Assembly: GCF_025153525.1 (NCBI RefSeq)
Contig: NZ_JANZNR010000004.1
Span: 248,001-312,000, forward strand
DNA: 64,000 nt
Direction of reading: 5' to 3'
From: Psychroserpens sp. SPM9
GTDB lineage: Bacteria > Bacteroidota > Bacteroidia > Flavobacteriales > Flavobacteriaceae
Part shown: one piece after another, positions 633-47,325 of the stretch
Layout: every line of letters begins with the position of its first letter
Numbering within the stretch: position 1 is the stretch's first letter
Notes under the pieces: generated by a model
What the model was told of the DNA's origin: nothing
The model's input: only the letters and a program-made list of their open reading frames with translations
Databases searched by the model: none
Translations under genes and position numbers: made by a program

Positions 633-956
633 TTACTTAAACAAATCCATACCAGGAATATTTGGCATTCCGGCTTTTGCAACTGCAGCAACTTCAGTTT
701 CATGAACCGTTGTGGCGCGTTCGATGGCTTTATTGAGTGTCAAGATTAAATAATCTTCAAGCATCTCTTTGTCTTGGAGTAACTCGTCATCAATAGCGAT
801 AGATTTAATTGTACGGTTGGCAGTGATTGTAACTTTTAGCTTGTCATCACTACTGGTTTCATCAATTAAAACACTGTGTAAGCGCTCTTTAGTTTCTTCA
901 ACTTTTTTCTGGGTTTCTTTTAGCTTGCCCATCATTCCCATCATATCTCCAAACAT
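633..956 (-). CDS. ybaB: YbaB/EbfC family nucleoid-associated protein
   Basis: A 107-residue protein of the YbaB/EbfC family, small dimeric DNA-binding proteins. It starts [12 protein letters not shown], the usual Met/Gly-rich helix, followed by a charged coiled helix ([14 protein letters not shown]) and a beta segment with [19 protein letters not shown], as in the family. An in-frame start 30 bases further upstream exists, but a TAATTTTG promoter element at 984-991 would place transcription near 977 and exclude it; the chosen start also gives the usual family length. It is convergent with the preceding aldolase gene and divergent from the protease gene. No neighbouring recR or dnaX is seen. 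Confidence 0.85.
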
Positions 957-983
957 ATTGTTAAGTATTAATATTATAAGTTG

Positions 984-991
984 CAAAATTA
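984..991 (-). promoter_or_regulatory. TAnnTTTG promoter element for ybaB
   Basis: On the minus strand this reads TAATTTTG, an exact match to the Bacteroidota -7 element. It lies 28 bases before the chosen ybaB start codon and supports that start. No clear -33 TTTG was found. Confidence 0.5.
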
Positions 992-1019
992 CTAAATTGC
1001 CAGACTTTTAAAAAGAAAA

Positions 1020-3080
1020 ATGAAGACGACTATTGAAGCTCCTGTCGCAAGACAAATCCCTAAGGAATTAGAAATTCACAACGATAAAAGGATTGATAAT
1101 TATTTTTGGTTAAATCAACGAGAAGACCAAAATGTTCTGGATTATCTCAATGCCGAAAACGACTTCTATCAGAGAGAAACTGCGCATACCAAAGAGTTTG
1201 AAACTTCTCTTTTTGAAGAAATGAAAGCGAGAATTAAGGAAGATGATGCATCTGTGCCTTACAAATACAATGGCTATTGGTACATTGTACGCTATGAAAA
1301 AGGAAAAGATTACCCCATTTATACACGTAAAAAGGAAAGTTTAGAAGCTAAAGAGGAATTGCTTTTTGACTGCAATCAAATGGCTGAAACGCATAGCTAT
1401 TTTAGATTAGTGGGTTTAAGCGTCAGTCCAGATAATTCGATGATTGCTTTTGGAATTGATACTGTTGGGAGACGCCAATACACACTGCAAATTAAAAGTT
1501 TAATTACAGGTCAAGTGTTTTCTGATGCCATCAAAAACACCACGGGATCTTCTACTTGGGCGAATGATAATTCTACATTATTCTATACCAAAAAGGACGA
1601 ACAAACGTTGCGGTCTAACGAAATTTACAAGCATAAGATTGGTGATTCCGAAGAACAAGACACGCTGATTTATACAGAAGACGATGATACATTTGGCGTG
1701 GCAGTATATAAATCTAAATCTCGAAAGTATATTATAATTGCTTGTTACAGCACATTAACCAACGAATTTCATGTTCTAGATGCAGATACACCTGACGCTA
1801 ATTTTAAATTATTTCAACGACGTATTCGCGGATTAGAATATAGTATTTCTCATTTTGAAGAGGCATTTTATATGCTCACTAATTATAACGATGCTATCAA
1901 TTTCAAGTTGATGAAAACACCCGAAAACAATACCGAAATTGAACATTGGGTTGAGGTTATCGGTCATCGGGATGATGTGCTGCTTGAAGACATAGATATT
2001 TTTAAAGATTATCTGGTCATTAGTGAACGTTCTAACGGATTAAACCAAATTAGAATCAAACGATGGGATGGTTCAGCCGATTATTATTTACCATTCGATA
2101 ACGAAACCTACACCGTAAATACAGGAACTAATGTTGATTTTGATACCGAAATTTTACGCTACAGTTATAACTCGCTAACGCATCCGGCTTCTGTTATTGA
2201 TTTCAATATGAAAACCAAGACAAAAGTTATCAAAAAAGAACAGGAAGTACTCGATCCTAATTTTGATAAAAATAATTACACATCCGAACGTATATGGGCA
2301 ACAGCTCAAGATGGCACGAAAATCCCCATGTCCTTAGTGAGACGAAAAGACACTAAGCTTGATGAAAATACGCCCTTACTTCAGTATGCCTATGGAAGTT
2401 ATGGTTCTACTATTGACCCTTATTTTTCAACCATACGATTGAGTCTTTTGGATCGCGGATTTATATATGTCATCGCACATGTAAGAGGTGGCGAATATCT
2501 AGGCAGGCACTGGTATGAAGACGGAAAGCTTCTGAAAAAGAAAAATACATTTACAGATTTTATAGACTGTTCTAAACATCTTATTGCTCATAAATATACC
2601 AGTCCTAAACATTTATATGCGATGGGCGGAAGTGCAGGAGGCTTGCTTATGGGCGTGATTATTAATGAAGCACCTCAATTGTACCATGGTGTTATTGCAG
2701 CAGTTCCTTTTGTTGATGTGGTTACAACAATGTTAGATGACTCTATTCCGTTAACAACAGGAGAATATGATGAATGGGGAAATCCTAACGATAAAACCTT
2801 CTACGACTATATTAAAAGCTATTCGCCCTACGATAATATCAAGAAGCAATCATATCCAAACTTACTGATAACTGCAGGTTTACATGATTCACAAGTTCAG
2901 TATTGGGAACCCGCAAAATGGGCATCTAAGTTAAGAACTTTTAAACAAGATACTAACAAGTTGTACTTGGTGACTAACATGGAAGCCGGTCATGGCGGAG
3001 CTTCCGGGCGATTTGAAGCGCTAAAAGAAGATGCGCAGGAATTTGCATTTTTACTAGACTTAGAAGGAATTATTAGCTAA
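1020..3080 (+). CDS. Oligopeptidase B-like S9 family peptidase
   Basis: A 686-residue cytosolic serine peptidase of family S9A (prolyl oligopeptidase clan), closest in layout to oligopeptidase B (protease II), which cuts short peptides after basic residues. The first ~400 residues form the beta-propeller domain that limits access to short peptides. The C-terminal alpha/beta hydrolase domain contains GGSAGG with the nucleophile Ser538, Asp623 in AGLHDSQV and His658 in EAGHGG, so the triad is intact. No signal peptide is visible. Length fits the family (about 680-710). It stands alone between a divergent ybaB and the next gene's own promoter. Specificity for basic residues is inferred from family membership. 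Confidence 0.85.
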   Translation: MKTTIEAPVARQIPKELEIHNDKRIDNYFWLNQREDQNVLDYLNAENDFYQRETAHTKEFETSLFEEMKARIKEDDASVPYKYNGYWYIVRYEKGKDYPIYTRKKESLEAKEELLFDCNQMAETHSYFRLVGLSVSPDNSMIAFGIDTVGRRQYTLQIKSLITGQVFSDAIKNTTGSSTWANDNSTLFYTKKDEQTLRSNEIYKHKIGDSEEQDTLIYTEDDDTFGVAVYKSKSRKYIIIACYSTLTNEFHVLDADTPDANFKLFQRRIRGLEYSISHFEEAFYMLTNYNDAINFKLMKTPENNTEIEHWVEVIGHRDDVLLEDIDIFKDYLVISERSNGLNQIRIKRWDGSADYYLPFDNETYTVNTGTNVDFDTEILRYSYNSLTHPASVIDFNMKTKTKVIKKEQEVLDPNFDKNNYTSERIWATAQDGTKIPMSLVRRKDTKLDENTPLLQYAYGSYGSTIDPYFSTIRLSLLDRGFIYVIAHVRGGEYLGRHWYEDGKLLKKKNTFTDFIDCSKHLIAHKYTSPKHLYAMGGSAGGLLMGVIINEAPQLYHGVIAAVPFVDVVTTMLDDSIPLTTGEYDEWGNPNDKTFYDYIKSYSPYDNIKKQSYPNLLITAGLHDSQVQYWEPAKWASKLRTFKQDTNKLYLVTNMEAGHGGASGRFEALKEDAQEFAFLLDLEGIIS

Positions 3081-3095
3081 TTAAAAAAAAAGCCT

Positions 3096-3103
3096 TAATT
3101 TTG
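3096..3103 (+). promoter_or_regulatory. TAnnTTTG promoter element before the cysteine synthase-like gene
   Basis: TAATTTTG lies 51 bases before the ATG at 3155, in the 74-base gap after the peptidase gene. The downstream gene thus probably has its own transcript, ended by the hairpin at 4218-4247. Confidence 0.5.
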
Positions 3104-3154
3104 CAAGGTTTTACGTTTCAGATTTTAAAAGTAGGAAACTGATAAATAGCATTT

Positions 3155-4192
3155 ATGAAAAAAGACATACAAGTATTTGATAATGTTTTACAATTAATAG
3201 GTAAAACGCCACTTATCAAATTAAACAAAATGACTCAAGATTTTGATGGAGACTTTTTTGCTAAAGTTGAAGCATTTAATCCAGGTCATTCGTCAAAAGA
3301 CAGAATTGCACTTCATATTATTGAAGAAGCCGAAAGAAGAGGCATCTTAACTCCCGGAGATACAATTATAGAAACGACTTCTGGTAATACAGGATTTAGT
3401 ATTGCTATGGTGAGTATTATCAAAGGCTATGAGTGTATTTTGGCTGTAAGTTCAAAATCATCTGCAGATAAAATAGACATGCTTAAGTCGATGGGAGCAC
3501 AAGTATATGTGTGTCCGGCAAACGTGAGCGCAGATGATCCACGATCATATTACCAAGTCGCTAAGCGTTTACATGACGAGATTAAAGGTTCTATTTATAT
3601 TAACCAGTATTTTAATGAGCTTAATTTAGATGCTCATTATCACAGTACAGGTCCTGAAATCTGGGAACAAACAGAAGGTCAAATTACACACTTAATTGCT
3701 TGTAGTGGTACAGGAGGCACCATTTCTGGAATTTCTAAATACTTAAAAGAGCAAAACCCTGAAGTTAAAGTCATTGGTGTTGATGCTTTTGGATCGGTAT
3801 TAAAAAAATATCACGAAACACGTGAATTTGATGAGAAAGAGATTTATCCTTACCGAATTGAAGGCTTAGGAAAAAACTTGATTCCAACAGCTACAGATTT
3901 TGATTTGATAGACAAATTTGTAAAAGTAACCGACGAAGAAAGTGCGCATACAGCTCGTGAGATTTCTAGAACCGAAGGTTTGTTTGTTGGTTATACAAGT
4001 GGAGCAGCGATGCAAGCCTTAAAACAACTTAATGAAAGCGGAGAATTTAAAAGAGGCGATAAGGTTGTTGTTATTTTTCCAGATCATGGGTCGCGATACA
4101 TGAGTAAAGTATACAGCGATAAATGGATGGAAGATCAAGGGTTCTTTGATAGTAAGACTGCCATTGCTGAAAAAATTCAATATATAAAGTAA
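3155..4192 (+). CDS. PLP-dependent cysteine synthase/CBS-like enzyme; candidate cysteate synthase
   Basis: A 345-residue fold-type II PLP enzyme. The active lysine is in [12 protein letters not shown], and the phosphate- and substrate-binding loops are ETTSGNTGF and [11 protein letters not shown]. The C-terminal [18 protein letters not shown] resembles the cystathionine beta-synthase core more than classical CysK, and no CBS or haem domain is present. The next gene is an alpha-oxoamine synthase, and the window also carries serA and serC. In sulfonolipid-making Bacteroidota, CapA is a CysK/CBS-like enzyme that makes cysteate from O-phosphoserine and sulfite, and CapB is an alpha-oxoamine synthase, so I favour CapA. 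Ordinary cysteine synthase or cystathionine beta-synthase remains possible. The enzyme class is certain; the substrate is inferred from context. Confidence 0.8.
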
Positions 4193-4217
4193 CCATATAA
4201 CATTAGTTTATAAGATT

Positions 4218-4247
4218 CCTATCACGTGTTTTCGTGGTAGGTTTTTT
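4218..4247 (+). terminator. Rho-independent terminator after the cysteine synthase-like gene
   Basis: CCTATCACG (4218-4226) pairs with CGTGGTAGG (4233-4241) with one G-U pair and a six-base loop, followed by TTTTTT. It separates this gene from the downstream oxoamine synthase gene. Confidence 0.8.
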
Positions 4248-4309
4248 ATGTTTAAAAGGGATATGAACATTGGTTTATAAAAATATTATGCCATCATAAT
4301 AATATTAAC

Positions 4310-4317
4310 TAATTTTG
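4310..4317 (+). promoter_or_regulatory. TAnnTTTG promoter element before the oxoamine synthase gene
   Basis: TAATTTTG sits 66 bases upstream of the ATG at 4384 and downstream of a terminator, so the two candidate sulfonolipid genes appear to be transcribed separately. Confidence 0.5.
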
Positions 4318-4383
4318 TGTCGTGTATGTCTTGATTTTTTATAGATATATACAACTAACTAATAAGACTAAAAACTCGCTTTA

Positions 4384-5643
4384 ATGAAGGATTTATTTGA
4401 GAAGATCTATAAAGACAAAGGACCATTAGGAAAATGGGCTTCTCAAGCTGAAGGATATTTTGTGTTTCCTAAGCTGGAAGGAGAGATTTCTAATAGAATG
4501 AAATTTCAAGGGAAAGAAGTGATTACTTGGAGTATTAATGATTACCTTGGATTAGCTAATCACCCTGAAGTACGTAAAGTAGATGCAGAAGCTGCTGCAC
4601 AATACGGTTCTGCGTACCCAATGGGAGCACGTATGATGTCAGGTCATACCGAACTTCACGAACAATTACAAAAAGAACTTGCCGAATTTGTAAGCAAAGA
4701 AGCTGCTTACTTATTAAATTTTGGATATCAAGGTATGGTGTCTACTGTAGATGCTTTGGTATCTAAAGATGATATCATCGTGTATGATGTTGATGCACAC
4801 GCTTGTATTATTGACGGTGTTCGTCTTCATATGGGGAAACGCTTTACCTATAAGCATAACGATGTTGAAAGTTTAGAAAAAAACTTAGAGCGTGCTACTA
4901 AAATGGCCGAACAGACAGGTGGAGGAATTCTTGTGATTTCTGAAGGTGTCTTCGGAATGCGTGGTGAACAAGGACGTTTAAAAGAAATTGTTGCGCTTAA
5001 AAAGAAATTTAACTTCAGATTATTTGTTGATGATGCTCACGGTTTTGGAACCTTAGGAAAAACAGGCGCAGGCGCTGGTGAGGAGCAAGGTGTACAAGAT
5101 GAAATTGATGTGTATTTTGCAACGTTTGCTAAATCATTGGCGAGTACAGGCGCATTTATTGCTGCAGATCAAGAGATTATCGATTACTTAAAATATAACT
5201 TACGTTCTCAAATGTTTGCTAAATCGTTACAAATGCAACTTGTTGTAGGGGCTTTGAAGCGTTTAGATATGCTGAGAACAATGCCAGAATTAAAAGAAAA
5301 TCTCTGGACGATTGTTAACGCTTTACAATCTGGATTAAAAGAACGTGGTTTCGATATTGGAACAACGCAAAGCTGTGTTACTCCAGTGTATTTAAAAGGA
5401 AGTATTCCTGAAGCGATGGCGCTTGTTCGTGATTTGCGAGAAAACTACGGAATTTTCTGTTCTATCGTTGTGTATCCAGTCATACCAAAAGGTTTAATTC
5501 TTTTAAGAATGATTCCAACGGCGACGCATACGCTACAAGATGTATCTGATACACTTGATGCCTTTGACGCCATTAGAGAACGCTTAGTCAACGGAACTTA
5601 TAAACGCTTATCTGCCGCAGTTATGGCTGCCATGGGAGAGTAA
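4384..5643 (+). CDS. Alpha-oxoamine synthase (serine palmitoyltransferase-like); candidate cysteate C-acyltransferase
   Basis: A 419-residue PLP enzyme of the alpha-oxoamine synthase family (serine palmitoyltransferase, KBL, BioF), which condenses an amino acid with an acyl thioester and releases CO2. Visible features are WSINDYLGLANHP, DVDAHACIIDG with the PLP-stacking His, FVDDAHGFGTLG with the cofactor Asp, and TFAKSLASTG with the Schiff-base lysine. It is cytosolic, with no membrane segment. The neighbours are a cysteine synthase-like enzyme and a convergent GNAT acyltransferase, with no biotin or threonine-catabolism genes, which argues for lipid synthesis. Flavobacteria use this family for capnine (cysteate plus acyl-CoA, CapB) or for sphingoid bases (SPT). 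I favour CapB because of the neighbour, but sequence reading alone cannot settle the amino-acid substrate. Confidence 0.82.
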   Translation: MKDLFEKIYKDKGPLGKWASQAEGYFVFPKLEGEISNRMKFQGKEVITWSINDYLGLANHPEVRKVDAEAAAQYGSAYPMGARMMSGHTELHEQLQKELAEFVSKEAAYLLNFGYQGMVSTVDALVSKDDIIVYDVDAHACIIDGVRLHMGKRFTYKHNDVESLEKNLERATKMAEQTGGGILVISEGVFGMRGEQGRLKEIVALKKKFNFRLFVDDAHGFGTLGKTGAGAGEEQGVQDEIDVYFATFAKSLASTGAFIAADQEIIDYLKYNLRSQMFAKSLQMQLVVGALKRLDMLRTMPELKENLWTIVNALQSGLKERGFDIGTTQSCVTPVYLKGSIPEAMALVRDLRENYGIFCSIVVYPVIPKGLILLRMIPTATHTLQDVSDTLDAFDAIRERLVNGTYKRLSAAVMAAMGE

Positions 5644-5670
5644 GTATAACATACATAATTCAATAAAAAA

Positions 5671-5702
5671 AATCCGATTCATCATTTGAACCGGATTTTT
5701 TT
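5671..5702. terminator. Bidirectional terminator between convergent genes
   Basis: AATCCG (5671-5676) pairs with CGGATT (5692-5697) and further inner pairs form with one mismatch. The hairpin has an A-run on the left and a T-run on the right, so it can serve both the oxoamine synthase gene and the convergent GNAT gene. Confidence 0.7.
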
Positions 5703-6822
5703 ATATCAAAGATTTTCTAAAGGTCTTACGACGCTTATAAACTTCTGGATCAAAATGCTTCCATATTTTATGAATGGCTTCATTATCTTCTAATTCTGGT
5801 GTTCTAAAACAGGTTTGGATGCCTTTTTCAGTAAATGTTTCGTAATATTCATTAAAAATTACGGCATGAACTCCTTTGTTCTGGTACTTAGGGTGAATAC
5901 CAATTAAATAGAAAATAACATCTTTACTGTGTTTTCTGGCTTTTAAGATATGGCTTATTCCGAAGGGAAATAGTTTACCATTAGCTTTTTGAAGGGCTTT
6001 AGCAAATGCGGGCATCACAATGGCAAACCCAACTAATTCATCATCTTTATCAACTACAAATTTGATATATTCGGGATTGACAAAACTGATAAATTTTTTC
6101 TTAAAATATTCTTTCTGAATATCTGTAATGGCTACAAATGATGAGAGTGAAGCATAACTTTCGTTAAACAAATCAAACATCTTATCAGCATAAGGCATTA
6201 CTTCAGAGGTTTTAGTGAATTTAAGTGCTGTTAAATTATAACGACGCTTAATCAGTTCTTGTGCCTTTTTAAAGAATTCGGGTTTTACGTTTTCAAAAGG
6301 AAACTTGCTTTCTGAGTAATGTTTTTCAACAGCATAGCCCGAAGATTCATAGTGCTTGATGTAATAGGGATGATTGTACCAGGTAATCATTGGTGCGATG
6401 CTATCAAAACCTTCAGTCATAACACCAACCTTATCTAAATTTGAAAAGCCTACAGGGCCTTCAGTGTATTCCAGATTGTGCTCTTTTCCTATACGTTCAA
6501 CTTCTGCTAACAGCGCTTTTGAAACCTCTTGGTCATCAATGAAGTCAAACCATCCAAAACGCATTTTCTTTTGATTCTGATCGTTCACTTCTAGCCAATT
6601 AATAATAGCAGCGATACGACCTACAATATTATTATTTTTATAAGCTAAGAAAAAACGAGCTTCGGCATCTTTAAAAATAGGATTTTTATCCTTATTAAAA
6701 GTTTCTAGTTCTTGTTTAATAATAGGAGGAACCCAGTATTTTGAATCTTTATAAAGTTTAAAAGGAAACTTAACAAACGCTTTTAAATCTTTCTTAGAAT
6801 GTATTTCTTTAACAACAATCAT
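5701..6822 (-). CDS. Long GNAT-fold acyltransferase; candidate lipid N-acyltransferase
   Basis: A 373-residue soluble protein, much longer than a typical 150-180 residue GNAT enzyme. The N-terminal half carries SKYWVPPIIKQE, a pattern of the long GNAT-like family. The C-terminal half has a GNAT core: the acyl-CoA loop is IHPKYQNKGVH (QNKG at 314-317). It is tail to tail with the candidate CapB gene and starts 12 bases after an outer-membrane barrel gene on the same strand, so those two are probably co-transcribed. The bacterial ceramide synthase of Caulobacter is a GNAT-like protein of similar size, so N-acylation of capnine or a sphingoid base is a reasonable guess. The fold is clear; the substrate is inference. 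Confidence 0.7.
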   Translation of the reverse strand: MIVVKEIHSKKDLKAFVKFPFKLYKDSKYWVPPIIKQELETFNKDKNPIFKDAEARFFLAYKNNNIVGRIAAIINWLEVNDQNQKKMRFGWFDFIDDQEVSKALLAEVERIGKEHNLEYTEGPVGFSNLDKVGVMTEGFDSIAPMITWYNHPYYIKHYESSGYAVEKHYSESKFPFENVKPEFFKKAQELIKRRYNLTALKFTKTSEVMPYADKMFDLFNESYASLSSFVAITDIQKEYFKKKFISFVNPEYIKFVVDKDDELVGFAIVMPAFAKALQKANGKLFPFGISHILKARKHSKDVIFYLIGIHPKYQNKGVHAVIFNEYYETFTEKGIQTCFRTPELEDNEAIHKIWKHFDPEVYKRRKTFRKSLI

Positions 6823-6834
6823 ACAGTATACGGC

Positions 6835-7812
6835 TTAAAGACTTCCGTCATCATCAAAATCATCAGTTCGCTTCTTTTTGTCTTTTTTAGGCTTTCGTTT
6901 GTCGGCATCATCTCGAGAGTTTCCGTTATCTGTTTCTTTATCGACATGGAAATCGAAACGGTAAGACATTCCGAAGTTAACTCCAAAAACCGAAGGTGTA
7001 TCTTTTGCATTAAATGTGACTGCAGCATCTAACTGAAAATCTTTACTCCATAAATATCCGCCTCCAAACCGAAAGAGGTTATCAGCATAGAAATCACTTT
7101 GAATCCCTTGGGTTTCTCCAAAAACGACCCATTGCGGATTGAACGAGTGGGTTAAGGTAATGATGTATTGAAAATCTGAATAATCGGTCCCAATTCGGTC
7201 CTTGATTAAGTTTAGCACCAAGACCCAGCCGCCAGAAAAGTTGTTTTGCGTTGCGACCATAATTTTAGGGCTAAAACCTTCGATGCCAGGTGGCGTAAAC
7301 GGATTGTTTTTAGAATCAAAATTAGCACCAGCATACACTGCAACGGCAGGAATTAATGATTTCCATTTAAACGAACGATTGGCATGATAACTATATAAAT
7401 TGGGTTTGTCGTCTTCTTCAGAATTTTTATAAGGATCATACACCAAATATTTAGCACCTAATGTGAAGTTTTTAAAGTTAGAACGTTTGTCTTCTAAAGC
7501 AATAGCAGAACGATAGTCTGTAAAAGTGTCATTTTGGTAAACACCTTCTAAGTTAATTTCTAATTGCTCAAATAATAGTCCGTAACGAACCGTAAAATCG
7601 GCACCAAAGCCAGAGACTTCATACATGAGAGGCGTGTGTTCTTCTTTTATAATATAAGGACCAACTTCTATCTGTGCAACGTTGGTACCTACAGAAAAAG
7701 CACTTTTAGAAACACCTGGTCTGTTGGAGTTGATCACTTCGGTGTATTGAGCAAAAGTGATTTGGGATAGTAATAATAAGGTGAAAAACAATAGTGTTTT
7801 GATCGGAGTCAT
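6835..7812 (-). CDS. Outer-membrane beta-barrel protein, transporter-like
   Basis: A 325-residue exported protein. Residues 1-21 form a signal peptide ending at a TFAQ-type cleavage site. The body has alternating aromatic and polar beta strands of a MetA-pathway/transporter-like outer-membrane barrel, starting with NSNRPGVSKSAFSVGTNVAQ and ending with a strand GMSYRFDF. After the barrel comes a highly charged tail rich in Lys and Asp (about residues 288-325), unusual after a barrel and perhaps periplasmic. It probably forms a two-gene operon with the long GNAT gene, which suggests an envelope-lipid role. Substrate unknown. Confidence 0.65.
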   Translation of the reverse strand: MTPIKTLLFFTLLLLSQITFAQYTEVINSNRPGVSKSAFSVGTNVAQIEVGPYIIKEEHTPLMYEVSGFGADFTVRYGLLFEQLEINLEGVYQNDTFTDYRSAIALEDKRSNFKNFTLGAKYLVYDPYKNSEEDDKPNLYSYHANRSFKWKSLIPAVAVYAGANFDSKNNPFTPPGIEGFSPKIMVATQNNFSGGWVLVLNLIKDRIGTDYSDFQYIITLTHSFNPQWVVFGETQGIQSDFYADNLFRFGGGYLWSKDFQLDAAVTFNAKDTPSVFGVNFGMSYRFDFHVDKETDNGNSRDDADKRKPKKDKKKRTDDFDDDGSL

Positions 7813-45244: not shown

Positions 45245-46195
45245 TTATTTTAGAATACTAATGATTTGATCTGCTAATTCAGTACCAATTCTATCTTGTG
45301 CTTCATTGGTTGCTGCGCCAGTATGAGGCGTGAGCGATAAAGCAGGATTCATTAAGAGTTGAATTTCTGGTTGAGGCTCTTTTTCAAAAACGTCTAAAGC
45401 AGCTCTGGCAACTTTACCACTTTCAATAGCTTTAACAAGTGCCACTTCATTTATAACGCCACCTCTGGCTGCATTTGCTATAATGACACCATCTTTCATT
45501 TGCTTAAATTCGGCTTCATCAATTACATAATCTTTTTGAGCAGGAACGTGAAGTGTTAAAAAGTCTGATTGTTTTAAAACCTCTTCTTTAGAAATTGTTT
45601 TAATTTCAAAGTTTACTTTTTGACCATCAAAAAAGTCTAATTCTAAGTTTGCTTTTTCTAAGAAAGGATCAAAAGCAACCACTTTCATTCCGGCTCCTAT
45701 AGCCACTTTTGCTGTAGCTTGACCAATGCGTCCAAAACCTAAAACGCCTAATGTTTTTCCTTTTAATTCTGTGCCTTTAGCATAAGCTTTTTTCAGCCCT
45801 TTAAAATTAGCATCACCTTCTAAAGGCATATCGCGATTAGAATTATGCAAGAAACGAGCAAGTCCGTAAAAATGCCCAAAGACCAATTCGGCAACCGAAT
45901 GTGAAGATGCAGCCGGAGTATTAATGACATGTAGGCCTTTGCTACGCGCATAATCAACATCAATATTATCCATACCAACACCACCACGACCAATGATTTT
46001 TAGGCTAGGGCAGTTGTCAATAATATTTTTTCTAACGGTTGTAGCACTTCGAACTAATAGCACCGAAATTTCATTTTCGTTGATGTAGTTTTCTAATTGT
46101 TCTTGAGCCACAGTTGTTGTAGAAACTTCAAAACCTGCATTTTCTAAGGCATTAATCCCGCTTTGTGAAACACCGTCGTTTGCTAATACTTTCAT
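45245..46195 (-). CDS. serA: D-3-phosphoglycerate dehydrogenase (short form)
   Basis: A 316-residue NAD-dependent D-2-hydroxyacid dehydrogenase. The nucleotide fold contains GVLGFGRIGQATAKVA, the substrate side has LLVRSATTVRKNIID, and the catalytic segment has AARGGVINEVAL and LTPHTGAAT with the active His. It sits directly after serC on the same strand, which supports 3-phosphoglycerate dehydrogenase, the first step of serine synthesis. It ends after the catalytic domain, with no ACT or ASB regulatory domains, so feedback inhibition by serine is not expected. It would supply the phosphoserine pathway together with SerC. Confidence 0.88.
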   Translation of the reverse strand: MKVLANDGVSQSGINALENAGFEVSTTTVAQEQLENYINENEISVLLVRSATTVRKNIIDNCPSLKIIGRGGVGMDNIDVDYARSKGLHVINTPAASSHSVAELVFGHFYGLARFLHNSNRDMPLEGDANFKGLKKAYAKGTELKGKTLGVLGFGRIGQATAKVAIGAGMKVVAFDPFLEKANLELDFFDGQKVNFEIKTISKEEVLKQSDFLTLHVPAQKDYVIDEAEFKQMKDGVIIANAARGGVINEVALVKAIESGKVARAALDVFEKEPQPEIQLLMNPALSLTPHTGAATNEAQDRIGTELADQIISILK

Positions 46196-46263
46196 GATTA
46201 CGTTGTATGTTATTTGTTTTAAGCATTTTGATAATCAACTGTATCAAAATACTATGAATTGTT

Positions 46264-47325
46264 TTATGCTTTTCGTTCTAATTCACTCATCACATCTACT
46301 AAAACACCAACACTTTCCAGTGGTAAGGCATTATACATTGATGCTCTATAGCCGCCAACACTTCTGTGGCCATTTAATCCGTTAATTCCGGCTTCTTTAA
46401 CCATGGTTTCAAAGGTTTCTTTTAAATCTTCATTAACAAGCGTAAAAGTAGCGTTCATTGTTGAGCGATCTGCTTTTGTTGAAAACCCTTTAAACAACGG
46501 ATTTAAATCTATTTCAGAATAAATTAATTGAGCTTTTTTATCGTTTTCTTTTTCAATAGCAGCGATACCTCCAAGGTTTTTAAGCCATTCTAAAGTGAGC
46601 ATTGATGTGTAGACAGCAAATACTGGTGGCGTGTTAAACATACTGCTCTTGCTAATGTGGACTTTATAATCCATCATTGAAGGAATTTTACGAGACACTT
46701 TGCCTAAGACCTCTTCTTTTATGACTACAAGGGTGGTGCCTGCTGGACCCATATTTTTTTGAGCACCTGCATAGATAATATCAAATTTTGAAAAATCTAA
46801 CTGACGAGAAAAAATATCACTACTCATATCACATATCATTGGGATAGGCGAGTTAGGGAATTCTTTCATTTGCGTTCCAAAAATGGTATTATTAGATGTA
46901 CAATGGAAATAATCATAATCTGTAGGAATATCATAACCCTTAGGAATATAATTATAGTTGGCATCTTTGGAAGAAGCGACTTCATAAATATCATCATAAA
47001 GCTGAGCTTCTTTAATCGCTTTATCACTCCAAGTTCCTGTATTTAAGTATCCAGCGCGCTTTTCTAACATGTTTAGTGCGACCATCAAAAATTGTGTGCT
47101 CGCTCCACCTTGTAAGAACAATGCTTTATAACCTTTGCCTTCTAAACCAAGAAGTTCTAAAGCTAGTGCTCTGGCATTTTCCATAACGTCCACAAAAGGT
47201 TTACTTCTATGGGAGATTTCTAATAGTGATAAACCGTTATCAAAATTTATTACAGCTTCTGAAGCTTTTTGAAGGACGCTTCCAGGTAAAATACATGGTC
47301 CTGCGCTAAAATTGTGTCTTTTCAT
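46264..47325 (-). CDS. serC: Phosphoserine aminotransferase
   Basis: A 353-residue PLP enzyme converting 3-phosphohydroxypyruvate and glutamate to O-phosphoserine. It starts KRHNFSAGPCILPGSVL, with the family's N-terminal signature. Substrate residues are in ISHRSKPFVDVM, and the PLP lysine is in IYAGAQKNMGPAG. GHRSVGGYRASMYNALP closes the active site. Length is normal. It is followed by serA on the same strand after 68 bases, an operon-like pair. The product O-phosphoserine is the likely substrate of the candidate cysteate synthase at 3155-4192. Confidence 0.95.
   Translation of the reverse strand: MKRHNFSAGPCILPGSVLQKASEAVINFDNGLSLLEISHRSKPFVDVMENARALALELLGLEGKGYKALFLQGGASTQFLMVALNMLEKRAGYLNTGTWSDKAIKEAQLYDDIYEVASSKDANYNYIPKGYDIPTDYDYFHCTSNNTIFGTQMKEFPNSPIPMICDMSSDIFSRQLDFSKFDIIYAGAQKNMGPAGTTLVVIKEEVLGKVSRKIPSMMDYKVHISKSSMFNTPPVFAVYTSMLTLEWLKNLGGIAAIEKENDKKAQLIYSEIDLNPLFKGFSTKADRSTMNATFTLVNEDLKETFETMVKEAGINGLNGHRSVGGYRASMYNALPLESVGVLVDVMSELERKA

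Follow-up and report, generated by a model that had tools for sequence, protein, structure and literature searches.

The capA/capB locus

The DNA under study is a window of 64,000 nucleotides from Psychroserpens sp. SPM9 (contig NZ_JANZNR010000004.1, positions 248,001 to 312,000), and all coordinates given below refer to this whole stretch. Near its start, two genes lie side by side on the forward strand, namely capA (3155..4192, 345 aa), encoding a predicted cysteate synthase, and capB (4384..5643, 419 aa), encoding a predicted cysteate fatty acyltransferase. They are followed on the reverse strand by a gene at 5701..6822 (373 aa), which is convergent with capB. Capnine is a sulfur-containing membrane lipid that has been linked with gliding in the literature. 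A first-pass annotation, made from the sequence alone, had proposed the pair as CapA-like and CapB-like enzymes of capnine (sulfonolipid) synthesis. Both of its open reading frames (ORFs) were recovered at the above positions, the second with the peptide TFAKSLASTG, and the convergent gene was absent from it. Based on family assignment, clade, active-site signature, and the absence of a serine palmitoyltransferase (SPT) match in the genome, we are highly confident that the pair is predicted correctly as the first two genes of this synthesis. CapA, CapB, and the pathway are already published and the pair adds a well-supported case; the neighbor at 5701..6822 matters more than the pair itself.

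Assignment of CapA and CapB

The capA product scored 658.1 bits against the NCBIfam model for cysteate synthase CapA (NF053679, cut-off 600), while remaining below the cut-offs of the CBS model (395 bits, cut-off 510) and the CysK model (270 bits, cut-off 351). Its closest solved relative was 9k2p with 520 bits, the record of which is only named as a pyridoxal phosphate (PLP)-dependent protein beta subunit, followed by a CBS with 284 bits. In a tree of 27 rows, the protein was placed in a clade of 17 rows (support 96/99) together with capB-linked proteins, L185, and 9k2p. This clade was set apart from CBS, CysK, and CysM as well as from the CBS-like paralogue of its own genome (L004).

For the capB product, the best solved match was 28eh (718 bits, 74% identity over 418 columns), a likeness by sequence to an entry deposited under the name “Cysteate-C-fatty acyltransferase”. 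It was followed by SulA (7u7h; 580 bits, 61% identity), compared with only 238 bits and 33% identity for a solved SPT. We took 7u7h as the SulA of Alistipes finegoldii, since its residue numbers fit those given in PMC9304779 (here and below, cited articles stand for the excerpts of them that were available). The active sites of SulA and SPT are described there as clearly differing at Lys281, which is an alanine in SPT. In the window protein this diagnostic residue is present as K280, and K250 (the Schiff-base lysine), R375, H139, and N52 align with Lys251, Arg376, His140, and Asn53 of SulA. Congruently, the SPT model NF047600 scored 300.9 bits, below its cut-off of 640, and a tree of 54 rows split 33 CapB rows, together with SulA and 28eh, from 19 SPT rows with a support of 100/100. 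The first-pass annotation had suggested trees of both proteins as a check on its proposal; neither of the placements it had named as contrary, with CBS or CysK for the first protein and with SPTs for the second, was found.

Within the genome, the SPT model had four matches at E-values up to 0.001, none of them over the cut-off: CapB itself, L008, L010, and a stretch of 64 positions just before the window. L008 and L010 represent the remaining alpha-oxoamine synthases found besides CapB, L008 being a glycine C-acetyltransferase (701 bits, cut-off 493) and L010 a BioF-like protein (343 bits, cut-off 426).

Several of these enzymes have published counterparts, i.e., CapA and CapB of Capnocytophaga, SulA, 3-ketocapnine reductases, and the cysteate fatty acyltransferases of Flavobacterium johnsoniae and Chryseobacterium gleum (PMC10191378, PMC11211663, PMC12927429, PMC9304779). 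CapA and CapB of Capnocytophaga ochracea are ACU93374 and ACU93375 (Liu et al. 2022, cited in PMC12927429 and PMC10191378). These are the same two kinds of enzyme as in the window, likened here by description rather than by an identity figure, and their consecutive accessions suggest a similar side-by-side order; the window genes differ in being separated by a terminator-like hairpin and a promoter-like site.

Distribution and alternative readings of the pair

The phylum-level search for CapA showed that the NF053679 cut-off was passed in 30 out of 296 genomes, namely in all 30 members of the window's family and nowhere else, and all of these carried CapB as well. In the sister family (f2, six genomes), a CapA homologue scored 541-552 bits, i.e., under the cut-off, and was encoded beside capB in all six cases. 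On class level, CapB was detected by score band in 70 of 73 genomes. Around the 80 CapBs closest to that of the window, which were taken from a longer list and do not represent a random sample, capA was present in 78 loci. The adjacency varied: no more than 1 kb separated capA from capB in 12 of the 30 family genomes, and within genus g2 it was located away from capB in 17 out of 17. This distribution indicates that the enzymes are an old and common trait of the family, with a side-by-side order that is common but not fixed. As a single observation, an Aquimarina locus (L057) carried capB without the other genes of the block within 10 kb on either side.

A few observations weigh against the assignment of the pair to capnine synthesis. 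The CapA tree contained no row named by its record as a characterized cysteate synthase and its outgroups form long branches; consequently, the name of this protein derives from the NCBIfam model and the capB linkage. In CapB, S254 stands at the position of SulA G255, as it does in SPT. A SerA-like protein that could contribute to precursor supply reached 297 bits, under the cut-off of 454. In addition, the ketoreductase was not identified: a motif scan of the window ORFs of at least 100 aa, made without a genome-wide search, flagged no short-chain dehydrogenase/reductase (SDR).

That the two genes encode an ordinary CBS or cysteine synthase and an SPT, yielding cysteine and a sphingoid base, would agree with both proteins lying within those superfamilies, as reflected by their CBS and SPT model scores. 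These scores are, however, far under the respective cut-offs, while CapA is above its own, and the trees together with the K280 signature set the pair apart from CBS/CysK and SPT. This identity was rejected on these grounds and we consider it barely credible. The CapA-like and CapB-like reading of the first-pass annotation is supported by the CapA cut-off, K280 of CapB, and both trees. It is conceivable, and in our estimation quite unlikely, that CapB is a genuine cysteate acyltransferase while the main product of 3155..4192 is cysteine or a different beta-substituted alanine, the cysteate coming from elsewhere. In respect to this possibility, CapA belongs to the PLP enzymes related to CBS and has only distant relatives among those with a known activity named in their records, and the many CapB genomes lacking a CapA over the cut-off show that other sources of cysteate exist. 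Alistipes obtains cysteate via an archaeal-type synthase and not via a CapA homologue (PMC10191378), unlike the window with its CapA. The passed CapA cut-off, the adjacency to capB in the family and in the sister family, and the presence of L004 as a separate CBS-like paralogue argue against this possibility.

Proposed pathway and precursor supply

From the relationships of the two proteins, we infer the substrates and products of CapA and CapB as well as the production of the lipid by the organism. CapA would convert O-phosphoserine and a source of sulfite into L-cysteate, which the PLP enzyme CapB would condense with a fatty acyl thioester, probably acyl-ACP (acyl carrier protein), to 3-ketocapnine and CO2. 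A reductase would then reduce the ketone of 3-ketocapnine, and a GNAT N-acyltransferase, perhaps the product of 5701..6822, would add the amide-linked chain before or after this reduction. Acyl-ACP as donor fits with a single ORF of 1143 aa in another locus (L120:2145-5576) that unites an AMP-ligase, an ACP, and a CapB-like domain. CapB-like matches were also located within open frames of more than 1,100 aa in G219 (C210) and G179 (C1). The O-phosphoserine could be supplied by SerC (446 bits, cut-off 253) and the above-mentioned SerA-like protein, encoded at 45245-47325, about 40 kb from capA.

With regard to the reduction, two loci (L107:4178-7279 of G064 and L112:4099-7155 of G158) showed an SDR gene overlapping the start of capB and a glyoxalase-like gene after it, the SDR of L107 being an adh_short protein. 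A CerR-like epimerase was also considered as ketoreductase and rejected, since the query (L104:194-1189) had no match in the window's genome at 1e-10. Among the 22 genomes searched, four gave weak matches, the best with 1.1e-16.

The convergent gene at 5701..6822

In terms of domains, Pfam recognized only GNAT families in the product of 5701..6822, and its AlphaFold model adopts a tandem GNAT fold in a VIA-align comparison. A sequence search of the PDB returned one weak match (E 0.013), and no NCBIfam model matched at 0.001. Homology to E. coli YghO covers the full length of the protein (25% identity, 3e-37). By this homology and its predicted fold it is a member of the CerS/aca (YghO) family of bacterial ceramide synthases.

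Many database entries would instead make it a GTP cyclohydrolase, a name borne by 25 of the 42 named rows among the 120 matches listed (including P0003, P0012, and P0014). Domain content and fold contradict this name, as does the lack of any NCBIfam match at the above threshold. We rejected this identity, giving it practically no chance, and the name seems to be a wrong database label for a tandem-GNAT protein.

The genes yghO and CC_1154 have been described as a presumptive acyl-CoA N-acyltransferase (aca) for dihydroceramide (PMC9386255). A bacterial ceramide synthase (CerS) has been published for Caulobacter (PMC11324152), and CerS has been predicted in Prevotella from references of B. fragilis and Caulobacter (PMC10865984). 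Compared with the CerS/aca proteins of PMC9386255 and PMC11324152, the window protein shares the full-length homology, as compared with YghO, and the tandem GNAT fold; it differs by falling into a separate clade and by its genome, which has CapB while an SPT was not found there.

Linkage of the family to SPT was surveyed in 55 genomes, with at least one from each of the families f12 to f50, using the SPT and the adjoining GNAT of G002 (L104) as queries. A match in the SPT band (E up to 2.7e-107) was present in 47 genomes. In 32 of these the GNAT gene followed within 175 nt downstream of the SPT gene on the same strand (one case, G004, being a piece cut by the contig end), and in 15 it did not. 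Two of the 32 cases were fusions of SPT-type and CerS-family GNAT domains in one protein (L145:1351-3813, 820 aa; L146:1703-4090, 795 aa). Two loci (L094, L104) showed the order SPT, GNAT, and epimerase-type SDR, with both SPTs passing NF047600; two of five SPT-band proteins scored (L097, L099) reached 505 bits and thereby stayed below the cut-off of this model. Homologues on Rahnella and E. coli plasmids lie beside genes for an alpha-oxoamine synthase, an ACP, an NAD-dependent epimerase, and a fatty acyl-AMP ligase, a gene set that is also listed in PMC9386255. The layout in Pseudomonas veronii is the same with most genes unnamed, and a Roseomonas stretch contained no annotated alpha-oxoamine synthase by the homologue.

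A tree of 71 rows resolved three clades, designated S (SPT-adjacent and proteobacterial members), T (27 rows), and C. The window protein falls into clade C and thus outside clade S. Clade T (matches with E up to 1e-90; e.g., L131:2377-3495 and L155:1501-2619) was represented in 43 of 296 genomes. Of these, 34 belong to the class and each carries CapB, and nine belong to family f23 (304-324 bits), the clade T genomes of which have a CapB-like protein with about half identity. In this survey, every genome with clade T therefore also had CapB or a CapB-like protein, an association that is confounded with phylogeny, as the class had only three genomes without CapB. In the window's family, clade C was found in 29 of 30 genomes and clade T in none. 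The 40 class-level CapB genomes outside this family comprised 34 with T, three with only C, and three with neither (G041, and G064 and G158 with only partial matches to the CerS family), adding up to T or C in 66 of all 70 CapB genomes of the class. Where SPT and CapB occurred together (seven genomes), each genome had two or three family members; the SPT-only genomes G002 and G230 had one each, as had G238 (by the window query).

Candidate role in sulfonolipid N-acylation

Based on these data, we propose 5701..6822 as a candidate sulfonolipid N-acyltransferase and see the chances of this role as evenly balanced. The same holds for the wider proposal that it represents the sulfonolipid N-acyltransferase of the Flavobacteriaceae, derived from the ceramide synthase family, with clade T acting likewise in other Bacteroidia. 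If this were true, ceramide and sulfonolipid synthesis would share families of both condensing and N-acylating enzymes. Available excerpts of PMC9304779, PMC11211663, and PMC10191378 assign enzymes to the steps as far as the ketoreductase and leave the N-acylation without a named gene, and the literature covered, including excerpts of PMC11334938 and PMC9278070, named no gene for this step either, so that one may exist beyond this coverage. The order of reduction and acylation is treated as unsettled in PMC9304779. Present as one copy next to capB, with no SPT found in the genome, the candidate gene leaves both N-acylation and this order open to test.

Nearly as plausible is a role outside the pathway, in which the protein N-acylates another amino lipid or acts elsewhere and owes its place beside capB to general synteny. 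Relatives share the gene order of the entire block surrounding the pair, and the presence of a convergent homologue no more than 1 kb from capB, as seen in 22 of 30 family genomes, was hence not counted as evidence. In genus g2, capA lies elsewhere, yet 13 of 17 genomes retain the acyltransferase gene next to capB. The rest of the downstream block also stays in all five loci read, so that the place of the acyltransferase gene by capB reflects synteny and is no proof of function. Occurrence likewise speaks against the candidate role. Seven of 25 chosen capA/capB carriers were without any family member, with a 33-row profile included in the search. These 25 genomes had been picked mostly for a missing acyltransferase beside capB, and three of the seven are metagenome-assembled genomes (MAGs) of unknown completeness. 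The seven are isolates of Gramella, Mesonia, Salegentibacter, and Psychroflexus (loci L036, L043, L063, and L081) and the three MAGs, one of them a Gillisia (L044, L064, and L072), all with capA beside capB. Furthermore, clade C is present in genomes without CapB that have SPT alone or SPT plus clade S. Five genomes (G014, G039, G047, G180, and G267) combine SPT, a clade S member, and a clade C member; the f2 genomes carry both C and T, and G079 has the GNAT with no SPT match at 1e-70. A mere effect of synteny is opposed by the linkage of the family to SPT, including the two fusions, and by a clade C member with 40% identity to the window protein, which is encoded in an SPT operon of G033 (L093) between the SPT and an epimerase-like ORF. 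Moreover, 5701..6822 is the only family member found in its genome, where no lipid-type alpha-oxoamine synthase other than CapB was found either, which favors the candidate role in sulfonolipid N-acylation.

Intergenic elements

The gap between capA and capB contains a terminator-like hairpin on the forward strand (4218..4241) with nine pairs, five of them G-C, followed by a T tail. Across 900-7000, the scan returned two terminator-like sites compared with a mean of 3.5 in shuffles, i.e., no excess. The case for the hairpin therefore rests on its recurrence in relatives, where a hairpin plus T run was found in 54 of 79 capA-capB gaps (window included; a raw count of our own scan without shuffle control). 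Promoter-like -7 elements with the sequence TAATTTTG were located on the forward strand by motif scan upstream of capA (3096..3103) and of capB (4310..4317). The underlying TAnnTTTG, which we take to be the Bacteroidetes -7 promoter motif, was present in 70 of 74 capA-capB gaps of at least 60 nt, far above mononucleotide shuffles (mean 10.7, maximum 19); no TTG was found at a spacing of 17-25 nt upstream of either element in the window. The terminator and the separate promoters noted in the first-pass annotation thus both have counterparts that recur in relatives. A spacing of about 20 nt between capA and capB in four of 78 loci (L078, L079, L087, and L088) shows that separate units are not universal. 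A different regulation of the two steps is possible and compatible with this anatomy.

Between the convergent capB and 5701..6822, an inverted repeat AAATCCG...CGGATTT with T/A runs (5670..5698) was recognized by eye; it is missing from the output of the terminator scan, as its loop exceeds the limit of the latter. Judged from its sequence and position, it could possibly serve as a shared terminator of both genes.
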